A DNA stretch of 64,000 bases. It comes from Cytophaga hutchinsonii ATCC 33406 (GTDB lineage Bacteria; Bacteroidota; Bacteroidia; Cytophagales; Cytophagaceae). The notes below the pieces were generated by a model that was not told the DNA's origin, ran no database searches, and saw only the letters and a list, made by a program, of their open reading frames with translations. The position numbers and the translations under genes are program-made. Each line of letters starts with the position of its first letter. Within the stretch, counting starts at the first letter, position 1. The stretch covers positions 2,558,001 to 2,622,000 of the forward strand of contig NC_008255.1 in NCBI RefSeq assembly GCF_000014145.1, in the 5' to 3' direction. Positions 4,575 to 64,000 of the stretch are shown here, piece after piece.

Positions 4575-6404
4575 TTAATGTTCGTCTACTTCGCCTGGTA
4601 AATTAGACTCAGGAGTTTCGGAGAATGGCACTGTCTGCGGAATGAAGTCATCAGCAGCACCAGGCTTGCTGTAATCGTATGGCCAACGATACACGTGCGG
4701 AATAGCACCCGGCCAGTTGCCGTGACCCGGATTGATTGGCGTAGTCCACTCTAATGTATTTGATTTCCATGGGTTCATTGTAGCAATTCTACCTTTAAAC
4801 ATGCTGTAGAAGAAGTTGAAGATAAATACAAATTGCGCTACAAATGTTACGATCGCTGCAATACTGATCAATTCGTTCAGATCTGTAAAGCTATTGAACG
4901 CATCAAAACCTGTCCATGAATAATAACGTCTTGGAAAACCTGCGATACCAATGTAGTGCATCGGGAAGAAGATCAGGTAAACACCGATAAATGTTAACCA
5001 GAAGTGGATATAACCCAAACGGTCATCCATCATACGGCCGAACATTTTAGGATACCAGTGATAAACACCGGCAAGCATACCAAAGAAGGATGCAGAACCC
5101 ATTACAATGTGAAAGTGTGCTACAACGAAATACGTATCGTGTAATTGAATATCTGCTGCAGAGTTACCTAATACAATACCTGTTAAACCACCTGATATGA
5201 AGAAAGAAACCAGACCTATAGAGAACAACATAGCAGGTGTAAAGATGATGTTACCTCTCCATAATGTAGCAATGTAGTTGAAAGCCTTCACCGCAGATGG
5301 TACCGCAATGATCAATGTAAGGAACATGAATATGGAACCCAGGAATGGATTCATACCTGTTACGAACATATGGTGGGCCCATACAATGAATGATAAGAAT
5401 GCAATAGCAACAATAGAGAAGATCATCGCTTTGTAACCAAAGATCGGCTTACGTGAATTCGTTGCAACAATCTCAGATGTTACACCCAATGCAGGTAATA
5501 ATACGATGTATACTTCCGGGTGACCTAAGAACCAGAATAAGTGCTGGAATAAGATTGGGCTGCCACCTTCGTTGTGTAACGCTTCCCCACCAATGTAGAT
5601 TTCAGATAAGAAGAAACTTGTTCCGAAACTTCTGTCGAATACTAATAATAATGCTGCTGAGAATAATACCGGGAAGGATAATAAACCAATGATTGCAGTG
5701 ATAAAGAACGCCCAGATCGTTAACGGAAGACGTGTAAACGTCATACCTTTTGTTCTGAGGTTAATTACTGTAGTTACATAGTTCAAACCACCCAATAATG
5801 TTGATGCAATAAAGAATACCATTGCAACCAACCATAATGTCATCCCTAAACCTGAACCGTTTACTGCCTGTGGTAATGCACTCAATGGAGGATAAATTAC
5901 CCAGCCACCTGATGCAGGTCCTGTTTTAATAAATAAAGAGAACATCATGATCACACTTGAAAGGAAGAACAACCAATAAGACAGCATGTTCAAAAAGCCA
6001 GATGCCATATCACGTGCACCAATCTGAAGCGGAATCAGGAAGTTACTGAACGTACCGCTCAGACCCGCTGTTAATACAAAGAATACCATGATTGTACCAT
6101 GCATGGTTACTAATGCAAGATAAAATTCAGGATCTAATTTACCATTCTGAATCCACTCCCCTAACAATGGTTTTAACCAGGTTAAATCTGCATCAGGAAA
6201 ACCTAATTGCAAACGGAACAACACTGAAAGTAAACCTCCAATAACAGCCCAAACAATACCTGAAACTAAATATTGTTTAGCAATGTACTTATGGTCTTCA
6301 CTGAATACATACTTACGAATCCAAGGCAGATCGTGGTGATCGTGCTCATCATGTGCATGCGCATCAGATAAAGAACCAGAATGTGACATATCTACAGCCG
6401 ACAT
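4575..6404 (-). CDS. Cytochrome c oxidase subunit I
   Basis: Catalytic subunit of an aa3/caa3-type heme-copper oxidase that reduces O2 and pumps protons. The 609-residue protein has twelve or more helices and all metal ligands visible: the low-spin heme His in LVTMHGTIMVFF, the CuB His and cross-linked Tyr in GHPEVYIVLLPALG, the two CuB histidines in IVWAHHMFVTGM, and the heme histidines in HDTYFVVAHFHIVMG. The N-terminus is His/Asp-rich (DAHAHDEHDHHD). It is the last gene of the act-cox operon, 56 nt after subunit II and followed by a terminator. Confidence 0.97.
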   Translation of the reverse strand: MSAVDMSHSGSLSDAHAHDEHDHHDLPWIRKYVFSEDHKYIAKQYLVSGIVWAVIGGLLSVLFRLQLGFPDADLTWLKPLLGEWIQNGKLDPEFYLALVTMHGTIMVFFVLTAGLSGTFSNFLIPLQIGARDMASGFLNMLSYWLFFLSSVIMMFSLFIKTGPASGGWVIYPPLSALPQAVNGSGLGMTLWLVAMVFFIASTLLGGLNYVTTVINLRTKGMTFTRLPLTIWAFFITAIIGLLSFPVLFSAALLLVFDRSFGTSFFLSEIYIGGEALHNEGGSPILFQHLFWFLGHPEVYIVLLPALGVTSEIVATNSRKPIFGYKAMIFSIVAIAFLSFIVWAHHMFVTGMNPFLGSIFMFLTLIIAVPSAVKAFNYIATLWRGNIIFTPAMLFSIGLVSFFISGGLTGIVLGNSAADIQLHDTYFVVAHFHIVMGSASFFGMLAGVYHWYPKMFGRMMDDRLGYIHFWLTFIGVYLIFFPMHYIGIAGFPRRYYSWTGFDAFNSFTDLNELISIAAIVTFVAQFVFIFNFFYSMFKGRIATMNPWKSNTLEWTTPINPGHGNWPGAIPHVYRWPYDYSKPGAADDFIPQTVPFSETPESNLPGEVDEH

Positions 6405-6460
6405 AGTATTTATGATAAATTGTTATTAATTCAAATTTAATTTTGAAGCGTTACCTGATA

Positions 6461-7588
6461 TTACTCGTGAGAAAATTTCAGATCTACATGCGCACTATCT
6501 GCAACAACTTCAGGAGTCATTAATGTATCCGAAACAGAAGTCTTAGCAATTGTTTCTGAAGGTAAGAACTCTTTTAAATACTTTTCTTTTAAAACGTTGG
6601 GAGCTTTAGTTGCTACATAAGCAGCATTTAAAGAAGCCCATGATTTTTGAGAAGCTTTCCATTTTTCATAGTCAGCAGGTTCATCAACAATTACCAGGAA
6701 ACGCATGGCATAGTGACCACGGCCACACACTTCAGTACAAGCTAATTCATAATTAAATTCAGCATTTCCTGTTTTCTCACGCATTTCTTTTGTAGAAATT
6801 GTTGGTGTAAACCAGAACTTCGTTGGCATTCCCGGAACAGCATCCATTTTCACACGGAAGTGCGGTAAGAATACCGAGTGGATTACATCTCTTGAGCGAA
6901 TATGTAATGAAACGTTTTTACCTTTTGGTAAATGCAATTCCATTGGAATAAAGTCATCGTAACTTGCAGTATCATTAAAATCAATACCGAACTCGTTCAC
7001 AGCATCAATTTTTCTGAAATGATATTTACCTAACTGTCCATCAGCACCCGGGTATCTCACCTGCCATGCAAATTGTTTACCCATGATCTCAATTACTTCT
7101 GAACCTGCAGGAGCAGGAGACGTAATTGCATGCCATTCTTTGTAACCATACACAACAAAACCAGCCATGATAATTGCAGGAATGATTGTCCAGATACGCT
7201 CTACTGTATGGTTATCAGGGTAGAAATAACCTCTGTTACCTTCTTTAAAACGGTACATGTATGGAAAGAAATACAGCAATGCGTTTGTTACTAAGAACGC
7301 AAGTGTTAAAACGGCCATAATCACCCAGAACAACATATCAGTTCTTACACCGTGAGCAGAAGCAGCTTCAGGTAAAAACTTATCTCTCGCAGACATGAAA
7401 GATAAATAGAATGCTAGTACACCCGTTACAAATACTACGATAAACAGGAAGGCGTTAACCGTGTTACCAACACCAACTGTTTTCTGGTACCGGCCGTTTA
7501 TCACATTCGTTAATACACCAATTCTAAATATCAAATAGAGTATTGATAGTATTAGGGCAATTGCTACAATTATAATTACAGAAGTCAT
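6461..7588 (-). CDS. Cytochrome c oxidase subunit II (CuA subunit)
   Basis: Accepts electrons at a binuclear CuA centre and passes them to subunit I. The 375-residue protein has three hydrophobic segments in its N-terminal 130 residues and then a periplasmic cupredoxin domain. CuA ligands are intact: an upstream His in RDVIHSVFLPHFRVKMDAVPGM and the CTEVCGRGHYAM motif (Cys, Cys, His, Met). There is no CxxCH heme motif, so this is not a caa3 subunit II with a fused cytochrome; the electron donor is presumably an act-encoded cytochrome. It sits 30 nt after actF. Confidence 0.96.
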   Translation of the reverse strand: MTSVIIIVAIALILSILYLIFRIGVLTNVINGRYQKTVGVGNTVNAFLFIVVFVTGVLAFYLSFMSARDKFLPEAASAHGVRTDMLFWVIMAVLTLAFLVTNALLYFFPYMYRFKEGNRGYFYPDNHTVERIWTIIPAIIMAGFVVYGYKEWHAITSPAPAGSEVIEIMGKQFAWQVRYPGADGQLGKYHFRKIDAVNEFGIDFNDTASYDDFIPMELHLPKGKNVSLHIRSRDVIHSVFLPHFRVKMDAVPGMPTKFWFTPTISTKEMREKTGNAEFNYELACTEVCGRGHYAMRFLVIVDEPADYEKWKASQKSWASLNAAYVATKAPNVLKEKYLKEFLPSETIAKTSVSDTLMTPEVVADSAHVDLKFSHE

Positions 7589-53690: not shown

Positions 53691-56231
53691 TTAGTGTATA
53701 ATCTCTACCTTATGTACCAGTGTTGCATCCCCTTTGATCTGGTACAGAATATACATACCTGAAGGAAGTGTGGATACATTCAACGGAACATCTGCTGCAC
53801 CTTCCAGCATATTTTTCCCAATAGCATTATACAATACCAAACGTCCTTCTCTATCCTGCATGTTAATTACATCTTTTGCCGGGTTCGGATATGCATTCCC
53901 GCTCACCTCTTTTCCATTGGCTGTAATGCCTGTTGCAAGTTCATTCACCAGCACCTGATGTGTTGTATTGGTGACAATTGACGGGTTCCGATCAAAATAA
54001 ATATATGCCGTATTTTTTATCTCCGTCAGTAATTCAAGATTGTTTTTTAAACGGATTTTATAGCGGATAAATCCATTGCTTTCTTTTTTATTTACGTTGC
54101 TATCCGGCAATTGAATGTTATTGAAGGTAAAAATAATTTCTCCTGTAAGTACATCCAGCGTTACGGTATATAGGTGGCTGGCAGACAGAACTGCAAAACT
54201 TTCTTTATCAAACACCGGAGATAAGGTATCACGGATGACGATCGTAAATGCGGTATCATTACCGGTATTCTGAAAACGGATCTGATATTCCATTTCGTCT
54301 GTTTGCAAGAGTTCTTCATTATCGGGCAGCACAGATTTATCGTTGGGGTCGAATGCACACAGAATCTTTTGTCCAAGTGCTGATGTAAAAACTTTTTCTG
54401 AAAGCAGATTGGTTGCATCTGCAGAAAAATCAATCACATCAGTAGCAACTTCAACACCAGGAAGCACAACGGATACCTGGATCTGCTTGGATGTTAAACC
54501 CGGTATGGATTGATTGGACCATACTATTTTTTTGCCATCCACATCTGTAGGCTGCAGATTTGAACTGCTATATTCCGTTTTCGGATCAATATTAAAAGCA
54601 AGTGTTCCGGTGAAATCCGCACTGCCCTGGTTCTTTATATCCAGCCAGTATGTAACAACATTGTTGCAACGCGGAAAACCTCCTATAACACTAATGGCAA
54701 GCGTATCTGACTTAAGTGTACCAATTTTATACGGCACATCAGCCTGTACATTTAACCCATCCGTAATCGTAAAAGTAATATCCTTTGTTCCAATAAAAGC
54801 AGCATCATCAACGGCTCTCACTGTATATGTTCCAGCCTGTGAAACATGAAACTGATAATACCCAAGACTATTACTATATGCATAAATGTTGTCCGGCAGC
54901 AGGATAAGTTTACGATTGGCCAGTGCGGGCTCTGCTGCTTTATCATACATATCATCTGAAGACTTATCAAGGAATGTATATCCGCTGATTGCATAAGGGA
55001 TACGCGTTGCCGGACCATCATACTGAATGCAGCTCAAGCCTTGTTCGCTTCCAACCCAGATGTTATTTGAACGGTCCTTAAAAACTGAAATAACTTTATT
55101 GTGTGGCAAAGGAGAATTCGAAGTAGTAAATTTTGTCCACTTATATCCATCATACATCAATAAGCCGGTACGTGCAGCCACCCAGATATTACCAAAATCA
55201 TCTTCTACAAAAAGATCTCTATATGGATTTACACTTCCCAGTACGCTTTCCATATTGTGTGAGAACCAGCCGTTACCGTCATATACTGAAATATCTTTTT
55301 CAGTTATTACCCAAAGATTTTTTCTGCTGTCTTCAAAAACTTTTTTTACAACATTCGATCTGAAAGATGTATTAGCTGTATTATATAACGTCCATTGTAT
55401 ACCATTATACACATACAATCCGGCTTTAGTACCACAATATATATTTCCTGCAGCATCTTCGTAAGGCGGGTTTACATAATCACTTGTCTTGAATTCTGAT
55501 ACTTCAGATGCATGATCTATCCAGCCAGTACCGTCATATTCATATACACCATACCCATTTACGTTTGCCCAGATATGTCCGTTCTTACGTTGTTCATATA
55601 AAAAACTTACTGTTGCCTGATCTGCTTCAAAAGGCAGTATTGAATTTTCGTTGGTGATATTGATCCATTGTGTATAATCTGTACCGTTGGTTTTCCAGAG
55701 ACCACCTCCAGCAGTATAGCCGCACCAGATGGTATTATTTCTGTCTACAATACTTACACCGGAAACTCCTTCCATCTCAGCCGGTAAATTAGCATTGATC
55801 GTTGTATTCGGTCCCAGATAATATACGCCGTAAGGAGACCCTGCAAGTACGCCAAAACCATCTTTCTGAAATACACGTGTGATTCTATTCGAAGGAAGTA
55901 TTGAATTGGAACTTGTTAAATTTTTCCATCTCAAATTTGCAAAAGCAGCAACACCATCTTCTGCAGAAGCAAACCATAACGAATCCGAAGCTTTACTTTG
56001 TACGATCTGAAAAACATTATCTACCTGAATCGCAAAATCAAGTTCTTTAACGGTGTAGTTTTTAAAGCAATAATAATTTGCATCTTCATCCTGTTTCGGA
56101 TAATCTGCCGGACAGGCATTCTCTGTATACGTAATCTTTTTATTTTGATTGTAAACCGTCCACTTGAGTTTTTGAGAAAAAGAAGCTGTACAGAATACAC
56201 ACATCAGTACTAAAAGGAATATTTTTTTCAT
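53691..56231 (-). CDS. Secreted two-component-regulator-propeller protein with T9SS sorting domain
   Basis: An 846-residue exported protein with signal MKKIFLLVLMCVFCTASFSQ. Residues about 60-410 hold repeated propeller motifs (NIWVAARTGLLMYDGYKWTKFTTSNSPLPHNKVISVFKD style, at least seven). A carboxypeptidase-regulatory-like fold near 430-490 (ANRKLILLPDNIYAYSNSLGYYQFHVSQAGTYTV) and a repeated-domain DUF11-like segment (YQIRFQNTGNDTAFTIVIRDTLSPVFD) follow. The last ~75 residues (AYPNPAKDVINMQ...LSTLPSGMYILY) are a type A T9SS C-terminal sorting domain. It is likely a cell-surface or extracellular binding protein; the ligand is not apparent. Confidence 0.88.
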   Translation of the reverse strand: MKKIFLLVLMCVFCTASFSQKLKWTVYNQNKKITYTENACPADYPKQDEDANYYCFKNYTVKELDFAIQVDNVFQIVQSKASDSLWFASAEDGVAAFANLRWKNLTSSNSILPSNRITRVFQKDGFGVLAGSPYGVYYLGPNTTINANLPAEMEGVSGVSIVDRNNTIWCGYTAGGGLWKTNGTDYTQWINITNENSILPFEADQATVSFLYEQRKNGHIWANVNGYGVYEYDGTGWIDHASEVSEFKTSDYVNPPYEDAAGNIYCGTKAGLYVYNGIQWTLYNTANTSFRSNVVKKVFEDSRKNLWVITEKDISVYDGNGWFSHNMESVLGSVNPYRDLFVEDDFGNIWVAARTGLLMYDGYKWTKFTTSNSPLPHNKVISVFKDRSNNIWVGSEQGLSCIQYDGPATRIPYAISGYTFLDKSSDDMYDKAAEPALANRKLILLPDNIYAYSNSLGYYQFHVSQAGTYTVRAVDDAAFIGTKDITFTITDGLNVQADVPYKIGTLKSDTLAISVIGGFPRCNNVVTYWLDIKNQGSADFTGTLAFNIDPKTEYSSSNLQPTDVDGKKIVWSNQSIPGLTSKQIQVSVVLPGVEVATDVIDFSADATNLLSEKVFTSALGQKILCAFDPNDKSVLPDNEELLQTDEMEYQIRFQNTGNDTAFTIVIRDTLSPVFDKESFAVLSASHLYTVTLDVLTGEIIFTFNNIQLPDSNVNKKESNGFIRYKIRLKNNLELLTEIKNTAYIYFDRNPSIVTNTTHQVLVNELATGITANGKEVSGNAYPNPAKDVINMQDREGRLVLYNAIGKNMLEGAADVPLNVSTLPSGMYILYQIKGDATLVHKVEIIH

Positions 56232-57446: not shown

Positions 57447-58688
57447 TTAATAATTTGCTACCTGCATAGCAGACAGCTGTGCAAGCTGCGTATAGAATGG
57501 AGGCAGATTCATGATATCCAGGCGGAACTCTCTTTCCGTACCGTATTGCGGCAAGAAATAATATTGAAAATTCGAAGGGAATATCTGCGGCACCGGCCCT
57601 TCCATTGTTGAACCATATGCACCTAAGGTCATGATTGTTCTTGCATCTGCAGGGTTTGGTGCATTCAGAAATACAAATGTTCCATACTTAGGATGCGTTA
57701 AATAATCATACGCTTGTGCACGTGCAAACGGATCATTCATTAACTGATACCGCGTAATCGCATAGGCCTGTGTTACATTCATAAAAGCGGTTTCAACCGG
57801 ACTGTTTTCAAATGTATCCGGCATACACAATACCACATTGCCAAAAGGATCCAGCAAAGCAACTGCATTTTGGGCAGTAGGGTTCGAACCTTTCACATAT
57901 AATAACAGATCGAGTAAATTTTTATCCGGCAATCTCGGGTTATCTATTTTCAAACGGAACGCATCGGCATATAGTTCGCGGTAGCGCAGCTTTACAGGAG
58001 CATCATCCGGCAGTGCTGCAGGGTCAAACAATTCTTGTGGAGCTTTTCCTGAATTGGAACTGTTGTTCCGCACCGCTTCTACATTTGCCTGAAAGACATT
58101 ATTACATCCGGTTAAATTTTGTACAGATACAACCGAATCTTTAAATGCTACATTCGGACCTCCAACATATCCGCGCACATATATGTCCGGATCAACACCC
58201 TTTATACCGCACGCATAATAACCAAACTTACGTTTAGCCAGCGGCCGCAGATCAGGAGGTAATGTATCAAAGTTAAAAGTCTGATTGTAATTGATACCTG
58301 CAAAGTCATCTATTGCGATCACGCCCACATTAAAACCTGCTGTAAGCAACGTTCCTGCACACATAGCACAGGGATCAAGTGTAGTAATAATAGTCAGATA
58401 TTCCGGATCCGGTAAATTCAACTGATGCCTATTCGCATAATACCAATATACAAGCTGCCTTTCACCATGGGCAGTAGGATCAAATGTAAAATTCTGGCTG
58501 CTGCCAAATAATGGCTTCAGTACATTGTTGTGCATGGCACAGATGACATTCCCGGTCTGGTTGTCAACAATCATGCCTCCGACAGCAAAAGTACCCTGTG
58601 CCGCCGCTTCCAGGGCCTGGTTTAATACAGCTGATGCAGCTTCGTTTGCATTAAAAATAGTTTGAATTTCTGTTGTTGAAAAGTTCAT
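57447..58688 (-). CDS. Double-deaminase-like protein (CDA-fold, one catalytic half)
   Basis: A 413-residue protein. The N-terminal half is a cytidine/tRNA deaminase-like domain with intact Zn motifs: TAHGERQLV (His74, Glu76) and DPCAMCAGTL (Cys107, Cys110). The C-terminal half repeats the fold: AVALLDPFGNVVLCMPD...SPVETAFMNVTQAY and later FLNAPNPADARTIMTLGAYGS, but the Zn ligands are lost. This is a tandem deaminase in which the second domain is probably structural. The substrate is unknown. It is divergently transcribed from the catalase-like/DyP set. Confidence 0.82.
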   Translation of the reverse strand: MNFSTTEIQTIFNANEAASAVLNQALEAAAQGTFAVGGMIVDNQTGNVICAMHNNVLKPLFGSSQNFTFDPTAHGERQLVYWYYANRHQLNLPDPEYLTIITTLDPCAMCAGTLLTAGFNVGVIAIDDFAGINYNQTFNFDTLPPDLRPLAKRKFGYYACGIKGVDPDIYVRGYVGGPNVAFKDSVVSVQNLTGCNNVFQANVEAVRNNSSNSGKAPQELFDPAALPDDAPVKLRYRELYADAFRLKIDNPRLPDKNLLDLLLYVKGSNPTAQNAVALLDPFGNVVLCMPDTFENSPVETAFMNVTQAYAITRYQLMNDPFARAQAYDYLTHPKYGTFVFLNAPNPADARTIMTLGAYGSTMEGPVPQIFPSNFQYYFLPQYGTEREFRLDIMNLPPFYTQLAQLSAMQVANY

Positions 58689-58985
58689 AGCTAAATTTGT
58701 TTTGAGGTGTATGAAAGGATAAAAGTATTTAAAAAGTACTTGCCGTAATGTACTAAAAAATATGTAATCCGGTAAAAAAACTACCTGCCTAACATCCGTT
58801 CTCCGATTATTTTAACATAAGTTATTTGCTGGAAGGTTAAAATCAGCATTCCTGCATTATTTTAATCTGCCCATGCAATACTTAAGATCCGTATAGAGAG
58901 ATTTTCAATAATCCTTTCAGGATTAAATAGTTATTAGTATTTTACGGAATCGTTTTTTAAGTACTTTTTAGACAGCTATTTTATT
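58689..58985. promoter_or_regulatory. Divergent promoter region with a shared two-block motif
   Basis: Upstream of the catalase-like gene: TTAGTATTTTACGG (58934-58947), 11 nt, AAGTACTTTTTA (58959-58970). Upstream of the deaminase, on the minus strand: TTAGTACATTACGG (58756-58743), 1 nt, AAGTACTTTTTA (58741-58730). Both blocks have the same order and orientation relative to each gene, and their spacing differs by about one DNA turn. This could be an operator/promoter pair controlling both units. Confidence 0.6.
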
Positions 58986-60017
58986 ATGGAAGATCTGCAA
59001 TTAAAACTGCATGCACTTGGTAAAGAACACATCGAGCCAAATGAAGACAGGCATATTGAAAAAATTATTCAGGCATTTAAACATGCATTACCAGAATATT
59101 ATCCTGCAGGAAAAGTAAAACGAATGTTTCATCCAAAAATGCATGGACTCGTAGAGGCACGTTTTTCTGTCGCTACAGACATAGAACAGAGATATCAGCA
59201 CGGCATATTTCTTCCCGGTGTTGAATACCCCTGCTGGATACGTTTTTCTAATGCAAAAAAGAAACCTGCCCCTGATAGTAAAAAAGATATGCGTGGTATG
59301 GCCATTAAACTAATTGGTGTACCTGGTGAAAAATTATTAGAACAGCATGTGAATAATGTTACACAAGATTTTTTATGTGTAACATCACAAACACTGCAAA
59401 CACGGTCTGTACATGACTTTCAAAAATCGCTGTCGGCTTTAATGGCAGGTGGTTTTAAGCTGGCCTGGTATGCACTTACACACGTCCGGGTCGTGATCCG
59501 TTCAATGAAACAGATCTCTGCATGCAACAACTTACTAACCACTTCTTTTTTCAGTACAACCCCTTACCGGTTTGGCAACAATGAAACTATGGCTGTTAAG
59601 TATGCTGTGATCCCGCAGAAAAATCAGCCTGTTACACCTGCTGTAAAAAAAACCGGCAATTTTCTAAAAGAACAGCTCATAAATGATCTGTCGCATACTG
59701 ACTTTTATTTTGATTTCATGATTCAGTTTCAGGAAGATGCCAAAACGATGCCCATTGAAGACCCAACGGTAAAATGGCGGTCTCCTTTTATTAAACTCGC
59801 TACAATTAAAATTCCGAAACAGCAATTTAATTCTTCTGAGCAGCAAAATTATGGCGAAAGCCTTTCCTTTACGCCATGGCATTGCATCAAAGAACACCGT
59901 CCGCTGGGTGGTGTCAACAGAGCACGCAAAGCAGTGTATATAGCGCTTTCAGCTTTCAGACATAAATTGAATATACAAACAGAACAAGAGCCTGTAACGA
60001 TGAAAACGTTTAATTAA
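58986..60017 (+). CDS. Catalase-like heme protein (minimal catalase fold)
   Basis: A 343-residue cytosolic protein of the catalase superfamily without the usual C-terminal domains. Catalase features are visible: FHPKMHGLVEARFSV near residues 48-62 (candidate distal His49 or His53), WIRFSNAKKK, DMRGMAIKLIGVPGEK and NNVTQDFLCV (Asn123/124), and a proximal R-x3-Y, Arg314-Tyr318 (NRARKAVY). Small catalase-like proteins include peroxidases and allene-oxide-synthase-like enzymes acting on fatty hydroperoxides. True catalase activity is not established by sequence. It is the first gene of a three-gene unit, 44 nt before the next gene. Confidence 0.85.
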   Translation: MEDLQLKLHALGKEHIEPNEDRHIEKIIQAFKHALPEYYPAGKVKRMFHPKMHGLVEARFSVATDIEQRYQHGIFLPGVEYPCWIRFSNAKKKPAPDSKKDMRGMAIKLIGVPGEKLLEQHVNNVTQDFLCVTSQTLQTRSVHDFQKSLSALMAGGFKLAWYALTHVRVVIRSMKQISACNNLLTTSFFSTTPYRFGNNETMAVKYAVIPQKNQPVTPAVKKTGNFLKEQLINDLSHTDFYFDFMIQFQEDAKTMPIEDPTVKWRSPFIKLATIKIPKQQFNSSEQQNYGESLSFTPWHCIKEHRPLGGVNRARKAVYIALSAFRHKLNIQTEQEPVTMKTFN

Positions 60018-60061
60018 TCAGACACATTTCAAACCATTTTTATTTCAAAACAAGCTATAGA

Positions 60062-61375
60062 ATGAAAAACAATGAAAGGTATATCGGACAGGGCGGTATA
60101 ACTGTAATTACAGAAATTGATCCTGCTATGGATATTCAGGAGTTGTATGTACTTCTGAATCATATTGGCGATAATATCAACACTACGCCCGTCATCGATT
60201 TTGCCAGCATGAAGGGATTACATTTTTGCCGTTGGTTTATTATTGAAGGTTTGACCGATGTATCGGGACGCTCCTATCCGGATAGCCTGGTGTATGCCGC
60301 TTATTACGATGGCAGTGAAGAAGACCATTTAAAAGAACTGCTGGATAACTGTATGAGCAGCATTAAGCTTATATATGGGTACTGCAAAGATTTCCCTGGC
60401 GGAACAGCCGCTACGGATTCAGCCATCATCCGTTACTTCAAAAAACGCATGAGCAAAAATCAGCTTCTATGGCCCGCATACAGAGGCGGAACGGTAGAGC
60501 AGATTATAGGTGAACAGAGGGTACGCGATTCTATTCAAATTTATTTGAATAAACGTTTGGCAGACAATAAAATCAATGGCTTAACGCCTGATGAGATCAA
60601 GGCCGGCATTGTTCATTATGTACAAAATGATCCTTCCTTAAAATGGGCACTTACGAAGCGCGCCGATCCGCCATTTGGCTGGAAATTTATGTACTACTTT
60701 AAACTGGTAACAAAACTTTTACTGATCGTATTACTGCTTCCGATCCTTCTTATATTTTTTATTCCGATCTGGTGGCTGCTGCTTTCCAGAATATTTGAAA
60801 AGAAAGATGATAAAAAACGCAAGCAGATTGTCCGTACAAAAACAATTACCGATCTGTTAAACAAAGAAGACCGGGTATTTATGAATCAGCTTACCATTTA
60901 TGGCTGCATTAACCGGCCATATTGGTACAGACTCACAACACTAAAGATCGGGTTGTGGATCTTTTCACTAAACGGTACCTACCGTTCCAATAAAGGCAAA
61001 CTGAGCGGTATTGAGACCATTCACTTTGCGAACTGGAGTTTATTCAACAAAGGAAAAAATGTAATGTTCCTGAGCAATTACGATGGCGCCTGGCAGGTTT
61101 ATTTAAGTGAATTTATAGACCGTTCGGCAATGGCCATGAATCTTACGTTTGGAACAACAGCTAATTATCCGAAAACAAAACGGCTTTTATGGGAAGGGGC
61201 TTTTGATGAGCAGGCGTTTAAAACAGTGGTACGGAACAACCAATATCCTTCTCAGGTTTTTTACAGTACCTATCCATATATCACAATGAAAAACATTCTG
61301 AATAATTCCAGGATCCGGAAAGGACTTGATGGAAGTTCAGAAGAATCAGTTTCTGACTGGCTAAAAAGATTATAA
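60062..61375 (+). CDS. Uncharacterised membrane protein of the catalase-like/DyP cluster
   Basis: A 437-residue protein of no recognised function. The N-terminal ~215 residues are soluble (ITVITEIDPAMDIQELYVLLNHIGDNI, a ferredoxin-like-looking opening). One strong hydrophobic segment lies near 226-251 (LLLIVLLLPILLIFFIPIWWLLL), followed by a basic loop. The C-terminal region (about 318-430) has a distinctive pattern: ETIHFANWSLFNKGKNVMFLSNYDGAWQVYLSEFIDRS, FGTTANYP and QVFYSTYPYITMKNILNNSRIRKGL. It lies 18 nt before the DyP peroxidase, so it is probably cotranscribed. No heme or metal motif could be assigned. Confidence 0.7.
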   Translation: MKNNERYIGQGGITVITEIDPAMDIQELYVLLNHIGDNINTTPVIDFASMKGLHFCRWFIIEGLTDVSGRSYPDSLVYAAYYDGSEEDHLKELLDNCMSSIKLIYGYCKDFPGGTAATDSAIIRYFKKRMSKNQLLWPAYRGGTVEQIIGEQRVRDSIQIYLNKRLADNKINGLTPDEIKAGIVHYVQNDPSLKWALTKRADPPFGWKFMYYFKLVTKLLLIVLLLPILLIFFIPIWWLLLSRIFEKKDDKKRKQIVRTKTITDLLNKEDRVFMNQLTIYGCINRPYWYRLTTLKIGLWIFSLNGTYRSNKGKLSGIETIHFANWSLFNKGKNVMFLSNYDGAWQVYLSEFIDRSAMAMNLTFGTTANYPKTKRLLWEGAFDEQAFKTVVRNNQYPSQVFYSTYPYITMKNILNNSRIRKGLDGSSEESVSDWLKRL

Positions 61376-61393
61376 GTATTAACGTCTACAACT

Positions 61394-62860
61394 ATGAATG
61401 AATCGGTAGAATTACATGATGTGCAAGGCATAATCATAAAAGGGTATGACAAATTGAAAGCAGCAACATTTTTATTACTGGAAATTACTGACAGCACAAA
61501 AACTAAACAATGGCTTGCTTCTCAGCTCCCAATGGTAACACATGCAGATATATCAACAAAAACAATTACCACTGCGGTGCAACTAGCTTTTACCTATTCA
61601 GGGGTTGCAGCACTGAATGTTCCGGCAGAAGCATTAAAAACATTTCCTCCTGAATTTATTGAAGGGATGGTAACAGAGCACAGAAGCCGTATGCTGGGCG
61701 ATCTGGAAGACAGTGCTCCCGATAAATGGAAGTGGGGCGGTACAGAAAAAGATTTTTATTCTATCCATCTGTTACTTATGTTGTATGCAACAGATGACAG
61801 TACATTACAGCATTTTTATACAGAACAAAAAAATACACTTGATGCAGCAGGATTAAAAATAGCTTATCAGCTGGAAACTTCTAAGCTACCAAAAGAAAAA
61901 GAACATTTCGGTTTCAGAGACGGGATTGCACAACCGGTTATGCGGGGTATCAATCATACAAGTGACAACGAAGCGAACCTCATAAAACCGGGAGAATTTC
62001 TTTTTGGCTATCAGAATGAATATGAAAAATACATGTTCAGCCCGACCGTTGCACCTGAAAACGATCCGGCAAATATCCTTCCGGCAGATATGAATAATCC
62101 GTTATTAAAAGATTTGGGAAGAAATGGCAGCATGCTTGTGTTCCGCCAGCTGGAACAAAATGTAAAGGCTTTTTGGGCTATGGCCGAAAGAGCAGCGAAA
62201 GAACAGAATACACATGATGATCCGGTAACACCGGAATATATTGCATCTAAAATGCTGGGACGTTGGCCAAACGGATCTCCCCTTACCAAATGTCCGATGG
62301 AGCCGGACGCATCCAAAGAAACGTTTGACAATTTTGGTTATGCCAAACACGACTATGATGGGTTAAAATGCCCGATCGGTGCACACATCCGCAGAGCAAA
62401 CCCAAGAGATAATTTTTTACGCGACAGTACGGGTGATCAAGAAAAAGACATTGAAAAATCCATGAAATTTATGAAACGCTTCCGGATCATACGAAGAGGC
62501 CGCTCTTATGGTGCACCACTAGTAGAATCCATGGAGCCTAAAGATATTATTCAGGCAGCAGAAGATCACAAGGAAAGAGGTTTATATTTTTTATGTTTTA
62601 ATTCAAACATTGGGCGGCAGTATGAATTAATCCAGCAAACATGGATCAATAACCCTAAGTTTGCAGGTTTGTACGAAGATCCGGATCCGATGATCGGGTA
62701 TCCGGGTATCATGGGCGATGGCGCAACAACAACATTTACAGAACAGGCTGTACCTGTAAGAAAACAGGTACGAGGCATTACGCGTTTTGTAAACGTTAAA
62801 GGCGGCGGTTATTTTTTTATGCCCGGGCTCAATGCTTTGAAATATATAAGTTCTTTATAA
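61394..62860 (+). CDS. DyP-type heme peroxidase
   Basis: A 488-residue peroxidase of the dye-decolorising family. The family motif GFRDG lies at 173-177 (catalytic Asp), the proximal heme His331 is in CPIGAHIRRANPRD, and the distal Arg is in FRIIRRGRSYG (about 366-370). There is no signal peptide or Tat motif, so it acts in the cytosol, unlike EfeB-type exported DyPs. Length matches the long DyP classes (C/D). Substrates of such enzymes include dyes, phenolics and possibly heme. It is the last gene of the unit and is followed by a terminator. Confidence 0.93.
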   Translation: MNESVELHDVQGIIIKGYDKLKAATFLLLEITDSTKTKQWLASQLPMVTHADISTKTITTAVQLAFTYSGVAALNVPAEALKTFPPEFIEGMVTEHRSRMLGDLEDSAPDKWKWGGTEKDFYSIHLLLMLYATDDSTLQHFYTEQKNTLDAAGLKIAYQLETSKLPKEKEHFGFRDGIAQPVMRGINHTSDNEANLIKPGEFLFGYQNEYEKYMFSPTVAPENDPANILPADMNNPLLKDLGRNGSMLVFRQLEQNVKAFWAMAERAAKEQNTHDDPVTPEYIASKMLGRWPNGSPLTKCPMEPDASKETFDNFGYAKHDYDGLKCPIGAHIRRANPRDNFLRDSTGDQEKDIEKSMKFMKRFRIIRRGRSYGAPLVESMEPKDIIQAAEDHKERGLYFLCFNSNIGRQYELIQQTWINNPKFAGLYEDPDPMIGYPGIMGDGATTTFTEQAVPVRKQVRGITRFVNVKGGGYFFMPGLNALKYISSL

Positions 62861-62922: not shown

Positions 62923-64000
62923 TTATAATAATTCCTTCAGGTGTTTTTTATTCGATTCAATTTTTTTCCATACTTCGTCCATTTGCCCGCTTAACATGAG
63001 TTTTGTCATTGAAGTTGCCATGCCTTTCATCTGTTCAAACGTAATTTTCGGCGGCATTGCTAAAGCATTCGGATCAGTAATAATATTTAACAAGATGGCA
63101 CCACTGTAAGCAAACGCTTCAATCAATGCCCCATCAACATCTGCCGGATCGGTAACGGTTATGGCACGCATACCCATTGCCTCTGCAATTTTAGAAAAGT
63201 CGGGATTAACCATGTCTGTCTGCCAGTCAGGTAAACCGGAAACTTCCATTTCAAGTTTTACCATACCTAAACTGTGATTATTAAAAACAATTAGTTTTAT
63301 CGGCAGTTTATATTGCACAATTGTCATGATATCTCCCAACATCATAGAGATACCGCCATCTCCACACATGGCTATTACCTGCCTGCCGGGGCACGCCAAT
63401 GCTGCACCTATGGCCTGTGGCATAGCATTAGCCATGGATCCATGATTAAACGAACCAAGCAGTGTACGTTTGCCTGTTGCATTCAGGTAACGCGCTGCCC
63501 AAACACACGTCATGCCTGTATCAACCGTATAGATGGCATCTTCAGCAGATAGCGCATCAATACGGGAAGCTACGTACTCCGGATGTATCAGATTTTCTTT
63601 ACCCGGATCATCCACATAACTTTTTAAATGCTCTTTCACTTCTGTATATAGATTCAATTGTTTCTGTAAAAAAGAATCATCTTCTTTTTGTGTAATCAAC
63701 GGGAACAATGCATCTAAGGTATCCTGTATATTTCCGCATAAGCCCATGTCAAGCTTTGCTCTTCTGCCAAGTTTTTCAGGAGCCGTATCGATCTGAATGA
63801 TTTTATTTTTAACCGGCATAAAATCCGCATATGGAAAATCTGTTCCCAACAAAAGAATGACCTCTGACTCATGCATGCTTTCAAAGGCTGAAGGCAGACC
63901 CAGCAAGCCGGTCATACCAATTTCATTCGGATTGTTATGCTGCATGCTCATTTTCGCTTTAAAGGAATATGCTACAGGCGCCTGAAGTACTTTTGAAAGT
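62923..64000 (-). CDS. TPP-dependent enzyme, pyruvate oxidase/acetolactate synthase-like (partial, runs off right edge)
   Basis: The C-terminal part of a thiamine diphosphate enzyme; the reading frame is open to the window edge, so the N-terminal (pyrimidine-binding) domain lies outside. The Met at 63951 is internal, since residues LSKVLQAPVAYSFKAK precede it in frame. The middle domain is visible (NPNEIGMTGLLG, IIQIDTAPEKLGRRAKLD) and the TPP motif is GDGGISMMLGDIMTIVQYKLPIKLIVFNNHSLG. The NHSLGMVKLEMEVSG region and the C-terminal ~30-residue tail resemble PoxB/YdaP-type pyruvate oxidases. Acetolactate synthase is the main alternative. Confidence 0.85.
   Translation of the reverse strand, partial: LSKVLQAPVAYSFKAKMSMQHNNPNEIGMTGLLGLPSAFESMHESEVILLLGTDFPYADFMPVKNKIIQIDTAPEKLGRRAKLDMGLCGNIQDTLDALFPLITQKEDDSFLQKQLNLYTEVKEHLKSYVDDPGKENLIHPEYVASRIDALSAEDAIYTVDTGMTCVWAARYLNATGKRTLLGSFNHGSMANAMPQAIGAALACPGRQVIAMCGDGGISMMLGDIMTIVQYKLPIKLIVFNNHSLGMVKLEMEVSGLPDWQTDMVNPDFSKIAEAMGMRAITVTDPADVDGALIEAFAYSGAILLNIITDPNALAMPPKITFEQMKGMATSMTKLMLSGQMDEVWKKIESNKKHLKELL

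Follow-up and report, generated by a model that had tools for sequence, protein, structure and literature searches.

Among the described systems closest to the one analysed here is that of Nostoc, in which a catalase-related protein is reported to cleave the 10S-hydroperoxide formed by a cyclooxygenase-like dioxygenase (PMC9579011, PMC13049297; also PMC11719350). Others are coral allene oxide synthase, a catalase-related protein of Mycobacterium avium, fungal dioxygenase-P450 fusions, ordinary DyP-type peroxidases and the WhiE-ORFI barrels. The subject of this study is a three-gene cassette of Cytophaga hutchinsonii ATCC 33406 (Bacteroidota), in which a small catalase-like haem protein, a membrane protein of an unnamed family and a DyP-type peroxidase are encoded one after the other. 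It lies in a stretch of 64,000 nucleotides (nt) of contig NC_008255.1 (assembly GCF_000014145.1, positions 2,558,001 to 2,622,000 of the forward strand), hereafter called the window; coordinates below are window positions unless given with a locus number (L). To our knowledge, the natural substrates of DyP peroxidases are largely unknown, and an unnamed family that stands nearly always beside DyP in 80 loci provides this enzyme with a definite partner and with a class of substrates that can be tested. No description of the combination was found in the titles and abstracts surveyed of the open-licence PubMed Central (PMC) literature, in agreement with an initial annotation of the window, which knew of no such system.

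A recurring cassette centred on a membrane protein and a DyP peroxidase

The three genes lie on the plus strand of a host genome that is a single contig of 4.43 Mb. The catalase-like gene (58986-60017, 343 amino acids) is followed after 44 nt by that of the membrane protein (60062-61375, 437 amino acids) and, 18 nt further on, by the DyP gene (61394-62860, 488 amino acids). A gene for a deaminase-like protein (57447-58688, minus strand, 413 amino acids) is divergent, with an intergenic stretch of 297 bp between it and the catalase-like gene. Open reading frame coordinates agree with the initial annotation in gene positions, strands and both gaps.

Relatives of the membrane protein were sought with a ten-sequence alignment in a named genome collection; of 441 candidate stretches, 426 proved to be relatives. 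The loci of the 80 best-scoring relatives were compared, a choice that makes the sample lean towards close relatives. A DyP gene was present in 75 of these 80 loci, immediately downstream on the same strand in 73 and fused in frame in 2; the gap between the two genes had a median of 9 nt and was at most 100 nt in 69 of the 73. Four of the five loci without DyP have at most 129 bases of contig beyond the gene, and the fifth, L093, is a genuine miss. By record title, the carriers among the best 80 belong to Bacteroidota, Alpha-, Beta- and Gammaproteobacteria, Myxococcota, Acidobacteria, Gemmatimonadetes, Planctomycetota, Chloroflexi, Verrucomicrobia (Spartobacteria), Armatimonadetes and Cyanobacteria. 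The membrane-DyP pair is constant and the gene order around it varies. In the four closest relatives (L030-L033) the catalase-like gene is kept upstream of the membrane gene, and the three-gene order of the window is complete in three of them, the contig of L032 ending inside the membrane gene. It is secure that a cassette centred on the membrane-DyP pair, with a catalase-like gene, recurs across many phyla. The initial annotation had proposed that all four of these genes belong to one pathway or stress system, and neighbourhood conservation in other genomes was set beforehand as the check on this idea. The comparison upholds it for the catalase-like, membrane and DyP genes and speaks against it for the deaminase, which was found in none of the 80 cassette loci.

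The tie between the two central genes is also seen at the level of whole genomes. In the window's class the membrane protein is present in 6 of 295 genomes, its own included, and a search of the same genomes with the window's DyP gave 6 matches, the identical set. If the two were distributed independently, identical sets would be expected by chance with a probability of 1e-12, or 6e-11 with the window's own genome excluded. Fusions link the same partners: membrane-DyP fusions were found in L055, L062 and L020, and DyP is fused to the catalase-like protein in 5 of the 80 loci. In addition, three proteins on alphaproteobacterial plasmids carry P450, membrane and DyP parts in single chains of 1,423-1,620 amino acids. 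These triple fusions (L011 5838-10109, L014 5736-10067 and L015 5772-10634) are annotated merely as P450 or DyP-type peroxidase. A gene for a TPR protein precedes each of the three, and one of these TPR proteins has a cyclase domain.

The membrane protein as a predicted tandem barrel

The membrane protein matched no Pfam or NCBIfam family above cut-off, and a PDB sequence search with its alignment returned a best E value of only 0.026, to an unrelated receptor. Its Kyte-Doolittle profile has one strongly hydrophobic stretch (peak 3.08, in 19-residue scanning windows starting at residues 208-228). Within the triad such a segment is confined to this protein: no value above 1.6 was found in the catalase-like and DyP proteins, and the neighbouring deaminase is marginal at 1.75. 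An AlphaFold (AF2) model built on a 55-sequence alignment (mean predicted local distance difference test, pLDDT, 88.9; predicted template modelling score, pTM, 0.89) has two alpha+beta halves of ferredoxin-like, ABM/SchA-type fold flanking a helical hairpin (helices 205-233 and 235-251) that separates them. The N-terminal half covers about residues 7-140 (60080-60481), the hydrophobic hairpin about 208-246 (60683-60799) and the C-terminal half about 270-405 (60869-61276), all on the plus strand. In the alignment each half has an invariant His (H54, H321), which in both belongs to a motif with the consensus HFAR; D83 in the first half and W325, N339 and Y347 in the second are likewise invariant. 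The top structural match in VIA is WhiE-ORFI (9lmn_B, Z 14.2 over 226 residues, root-mean-square deviation 4.0), the next is the AbxO decarboxylase (9ltx, Z 10.8 over 198 residues, deviation 4.7), and anthrone-oxidase-like proteins follow at Z 5.7; the best Foldseek E value was 2.4e-4. The window's protein has no Pfam match to ABM, and one plasmid relative matches it weakly (E 0.051, below cut-off). We predict that the membrane protein consists of two ABM/SchA-type barrels around a transmembrane hairpin.

These matches raise the alternative that the cassette tailors a polyketide, pigment or aromatic compound, with the barrels binding an intermediate, DyP oxidising it and the P450 or catalase-like enzyme finishing the product. 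The three kinds of protein that lead the structural matches fit this account, as does a Foldseek match of the catalase-like model to chanoclavine synthase, a biosynthetic enzyme of catalase fold. However, the barrel fold is common to many unrelated functions, no polyketide synthase occurs among the family-typed neighbours (a minority of the 34 recurrent neighbour clusters were typed), and lipase, haem dioxygenase and kinase-cyclase genes are among the recurrent neighbours that were typed. Tailoring of this kind is quite improbable in our estimation.

A shorter version of the barrel protein occurs on plasmids. Nine plasmid DyP loci, picked by hand from 81 records rather than at random, were inspected, and in seven of them a one-barrel homologue stands in for the membrane protein, L123 and L128 being the two without. 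These proteins of 183-247 amino acids match the membrane-family profile at E values of 5.6e-24 to 4.5e-15, and by their hmmsearch coordinates each aligns to a single half, five to the N-terminal and two to the C-terminal one. The four of the seven that were scanned have no Pfam family over cut-off. The small barrel gene lies between the catalase-like and DyP genes on Methylorubrum, Novosphingobium, Agrobacterium and Haematobacter plasmids, and in Rhodococcus, Acinetobacter and Nostoc it is a neighbour of DyP, so that the combination of catalase-like protein, barrel and DyP extends beyond the membrane form. Genes for an acyl-CoA thioesterase and a 3-hydroxyacyl-CoA dehydrogenase are nearby in Novosphingobium and Agrobacterium, the dehydrogenase also in Acinetobacter.

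The haem enzymes

The peroxidase passes the DyP_N model (PF21105, 31.3 against a cut-off of 27.5 bits) and falls below those of Dyp_perox_C (15.6 against 20) and NCBIfam TIGR01413 (96.8 against 100.5). Its best solved relative, 8re3, matches over the full length (E 9.6e-49). The catalytic residues D176, H331 and R368 are kept, with D and H in 76 and R in 75 of 78 aligned sequences; in DyP peroxidases the Asp and Arg are distal and the His is proximal.

The catalase-like protein scores below the cut-off of the Catalase family (PF00199, 21.4 against 25 bits), and its AF2 model has a catalase fold (pLDDT 90.4). In catalases a Tyr and an Arg serve on the proximal side of the haem, and the corresponding R-x-x-x-Y motif (R314, Y318) is present in 33 of 33 aligned sequences, the window's included, as is D128. 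Where catalases have their distal His, the aligned residue varies more (His 15, Asn 10, Gln 7, Glu 1; n=33), and the window's protein has His there (H49). The top VIA matches of the model are coral allene oxide synthase (3dy5, Z 24.9; 1u5u, Z 24.8) and the catalase-related protein of M. avium (3e4y, 24.7; 3e4w, 24.4), with true catalases at 23.4 at most; Foldseek placed 3e4y, 3e4w and 1u5u first. By its model the protein has a reduced catalase fold whose nearest matches, by a narrow margin, are allene oxide synthase and the mycobacterial protein. Likeness of fold does not establish function. A catalase-like region also occurs in Rhizobium leguminosarum (L028 6001-9015), within a protein annotated as a LodA/GoxA-type CTQ-dependent oxidase.

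Across the 80 loci, the third haem enzyme is a catalase-like protein in 25 and a P450 in 21, with both in none, an absence of overlap that has a hypergeometric probability of 8e-5 if loci are taken as independent, which related loci are not. On a maximum-likelihood tree (quick search) of 81 membrane proteins, at least 4 changes between catalase-like and P450 are needed, and the three states catalase-like, P450 and neither require 18 changes against a shuffle mean of 37. The window clusters with L030-L032 (99, starred) and next with L033 and L035 (99, starred); the catalase-like gene is present throughout this group apart from L035, where the contig stops within the membrane gene. A strict alternation of the two enzymes holds in the 80 loci but is broken by plasmid locus L122. 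P450 frames of 672-716 amino acids occur in ten loci, and in the one of these that was scanned (L051 7861-9954, beside a membrane-DyP pair) GST domains precede the P450 in the same frame. Five loci encode a catalase-like protein extended by a C-terminal tail, and that of L070, the sole one scanned, matches Polyketide_cyc2.

The two haem enzymes could also be read as a detoxification unit, in which the catalase-like protein and DyP clear the inner face of the membrane of hydrogen peroxide and organic hydroperoxides, with the barrel as a scaffold. Both haem families use peroxide, the haem ligands are kept, and two enzymes that have no membrane segment of their own are encoded beside a membrane-anchored protein. 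Outside the cassette the genome also codes for a full catalase (PF00199, E 3.7e-185), so that the small one would, on this account, serve another peroxide. Detoxification nevertheless leaves unexplained why a P450 replaces the catalase-like gene in 21 of the 80 loci and why patatin and dioxygenase genes are linked to the cassette. Moreover, a distal His in just 15 of 33 sequences speaks against catalase activity in many of the homologues, the window's copy being among those that have it. We regard detoxification as somewhat unlikely.

Genes linked to the cassette

Patatin-type lipase genes were found in 15 of the 80 loci, two of the hits being weak (L094, and L104 at E 3e-7), and in L050, L052, L072, L091 and L106 the patatin gene immediately precedes the membrane gene. 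Enrichment was assessed in the 50 loci with searchable genomes, which comprise 284.8 Mb of genome and 1.05 Mb of locus. Thirteen patatin loci are among these 50 and L104 is outside them; L094, which had no Pfam counterpart, was dropped, leaving 12. At the genomic density of PF01734 (175 genes in 284.8 Mb) 0.69 would be expected in the loci, of which 12 hold a patatin gene whose coordinates agree with a PF01734 hit (Poisson 1e-11, kinship ignored). Genes of the cyclooxygenase-like An_peroxidase family (PF03098) are present in 8 of the 80 loci, all within the 50, against 0.07 expected from a background of 19 genes in 13 of the 50 carrier genomes (manual count). They come from Halomonas and its kin, a member of the Methylococcaceae, another gammaproteobacterium and Nitrosomonas. 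In the window's class PF03098 was found in 1 of 119 genomes, and that genome also carries the membrane protein. A lipoxygenase was considered as a common upstream enzyme and rejected, PF00305 being present in just 2 of the 50 genomes searched, both Archangium.

The GAF-cyclase part of a kinase-AAA-GAF-cyclase protein in L045 is matched by large proteins in 15 of the 80 loci. A conserved protein of about 150 amino acids recurs in 11 of the 80 (L089 9363-9860 and ten others), in several directly before the membrane gene, and the one copy scanned has no Pfam match. On pNGR234a (L023 4920-10918) the catalase-like gene is followed by genes for a hypothetical protein, a di-haem cytochrome c peroxidase and a patatin-like phospholipase. 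Since bacteria are reported to have fatty-acid di-haem peroxidases (PMC4496055), these neighbours are a further lead.

The divergent deaminase and the flanking genes

The initial annotation called the divergent gene a double deaminase. Residues 19-120 of its product pass PF00383 (34.5 against 25 bits) and one zinc motif, HGE...PCAMC, starts at residue 74, in line with a zinc nucleoside/base deaminase; the word double found no confirmation, the C-terminal half matching no Pfam or NCBIfam model. Ten of the 295 class genomes contain a match, full-length in its own genome alone and confined to an N-terminal stretch (roughly residues 11-162) in the other nine. In the plasmid collection three records contain a relative (36% identity over 94%), all of them Sinorhizobium megaplasmids, with the match in two pieces (L029, region 5950-7253); beyond the 80 loci, the search for deaminase relatives covered this collection and the 295 class genomes. 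As a fourth member of the cassette the deaminase was rejected on its absence from the 80 loci and its restriction, as a full-length protein, to one genome of the class. It seems to be a bystander.

The intergenic region contains one copy of TAAAAAGTACTT at 58730-58741 (plus strand) and an inverted second copy at 58959-58970 (minus strand) that ends 15 nt before the catalase-like start, a weakly indicated candidate for a shared operator. Deaminase and triad could accordingly be imagined as one regulon governed by these 12-nt inverted boxes: TAAAAAGTACTT has 4 copies in 4.43 Mb, two of them inverted in this one region, and of the shorter AAAAGTACTT the window has 4 copies where 0.34 would be expected, a number reached in 0 of 100 shuffles. 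On the other hand, the genome-wide count of 4 is lower than that of a reversed control (7), 1000 shuffles of the intergenic stretch yielded a word pair as long as this in 2.6% of cases, the motif was chosen after looking, and the remaining two window copies sit in or beside unrelated genes. In L030-L033 the stretch of at most 400 bp ahead of the catalase-like gene has no AAGTACTT box, and the deaminase itself does not accompany the cassette elsewhere. Such a regulon is highly unlikely.

On the far side of the deaminase, 53691-56231 (minus strand) encodes a protein with propeller repeats of the two-component-regulator type, DUF7619 and a Por_Secre_tail end. Downstream of DyP, 62923-63999 (minus strand) encodes the C-terminal part of an enzyme resembling pyruvate oxidase/dehydrogenase, of the thiamine pyrophosphate (TPP) type, which extends past the window edge; some enzymes of this type produce peroxide.

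Proposed function

From the gene association, the excess of lipase and dioxygenase genes nearby, the conserved haem residues and the predicted folds, we infer, with a probability of roughly 0.4, that the cassette encodes a barrel-anchored DyP that oxidises a lipophilic substrate and a third haem enzyme that rearranges the peroxidised product. The three proteins may act as a complex, and the steps would run as follows. The two-barrel membrane protein would anchor the cytosolic DyP, or feed substrate to it, and the barrel would keep the lipophilic substrate at the inner face of the membrane. With peroxide, DyP would then oxidise this substrate in or near the barrel, and the catalase-like protein, or the P450 in other lineages, would rearrange or cleave the peroxidised intermediate. 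The likeliest class of substrate would be a fatty acid or another membrane-derived lipid. In some lineages the adjacent patatin lipase could free the lipid, and in some an adjacent cyclooxygenase-like dioxygenase could oxygenate it; in the organism of the window oxygenation might be due to the DyP-barrel pair itself, to an enzyme of another family or to a non-enzymatic process. The initial annotation had suggested that a peroxide or hydroperoxide is handled near the membrane, which fits the neighbouring genes and the predicted folds.

Several observations weigh against this proposal. The protein of known structure that comes closest in fold to the membrane protein has polyketides rather than lipids as substrates, and allene oxide synthase leads the catalases by merely 1.0-1.5 Z where the tie limit of the tool is 1. 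The enrichments count related loci, which by record title amount to about seven lineages for patatin and about four for the dioxygenase. The genome of the window has no match to PF03098, PF00305 or PF00067, and its two patatin genes lie away from the cassette, so that no enzymatic source of lipid hydroperoxide is in sight there. Neither a catalase-like nor a P450 gene is present in 34 of the 80 loci, some contigs ending early, and genes for a P450, a catalase-like protein, a barrel and DyP follow one another in the Methylorubrum locus L122. Finally, 21 of 24 P450s have the acidic I-helix residue that is usual in ordinary monooxygenases, which leaves their assignment as CYP74-like self-sufficient isomerases by the I-helix unsupported. 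Since some self-sufficient fungal allene oxide synthases are reported to have Thr in substrate recognition site 4 (SRS4; PMC13049297), the I-helix test does not decide whether the P450s act as isomerases.

A more specific version, which we consider unlikely, is a pathway for lipid mediators in bacteria, comparable to eicosanoid synthesis. Patatin would free a fatty acid at the membrane, the cyclooxygenase-like enzyme or the DyP-barrel pair would peroxidise it, a catalase-like or P450 isomerase (sometimes a GST-P450) would yield a signal, and the linked kinase-AAA-GAF-cyclase regulators would read or control that signal.

For the main proposal, should DyP and its barrel act on a lipid, oxylipin-type chemistry would extend much further among bacteria (Bacteroidota, Proteobacteria, Myxococcota, Acidobacteria and others, judged by record title) than the cases found described. 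The three genes are short and adjacent, and direct reconstitution is feasible.

Comparison with known systems

The linoleate 10S-dioxygenase and catalase-related hydroperoxide lyase of Nostoc punctiforme resemble the cassette in pairing a small catalase-fold protein with a second haem enzyme, and a cyclooxygenase-like gene is near 8 of the 80 cassette loci. The accessible parts of those sources mention no DyP or barrel, however, and the genome of the window is without the dioxygenase. Coral allene oxide synthase (1u5u, 3dy5) and the M. avium protein 3e4y share the reduced catalase fold, at 16% and 23% identity; in contrast to the coral enzyme, the catalase-like gene is separate and stands with DyP and a barrel, with no lipoxygenase fusion. 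The fungal dioxygenase-P450 fusions and cyclooxygenase cascade (PMC13049297) are alike in a P450 linked or fused to a haem enzyme and in the lipase and cyclooxygenase-like genes near some cassette loci, whereas the partner of the cassette P450 is DyP plus barrel and most of these P450s retain the I-helix acid. Ordinary DyP-type peroxidases (8re3, Alr1585) have the same catalytic D/R/H and are similar in sequence; the cassette DyP differs in its conserved barrel partner and in the third haem enzyme that accompanies it in 46 of the 80 loci. The WhiE-ORFI and SchA-CurD ABM-type barrels (9lmn), finally, have the same two-barrel arrangement (Z 14.2), but the membrane protein belongs to no recognised sequence family, has a transmembrane hairpin inserted between its barrels and is encoded beside, or fused to, a DyP peroxidase in 75 of 80 loci.

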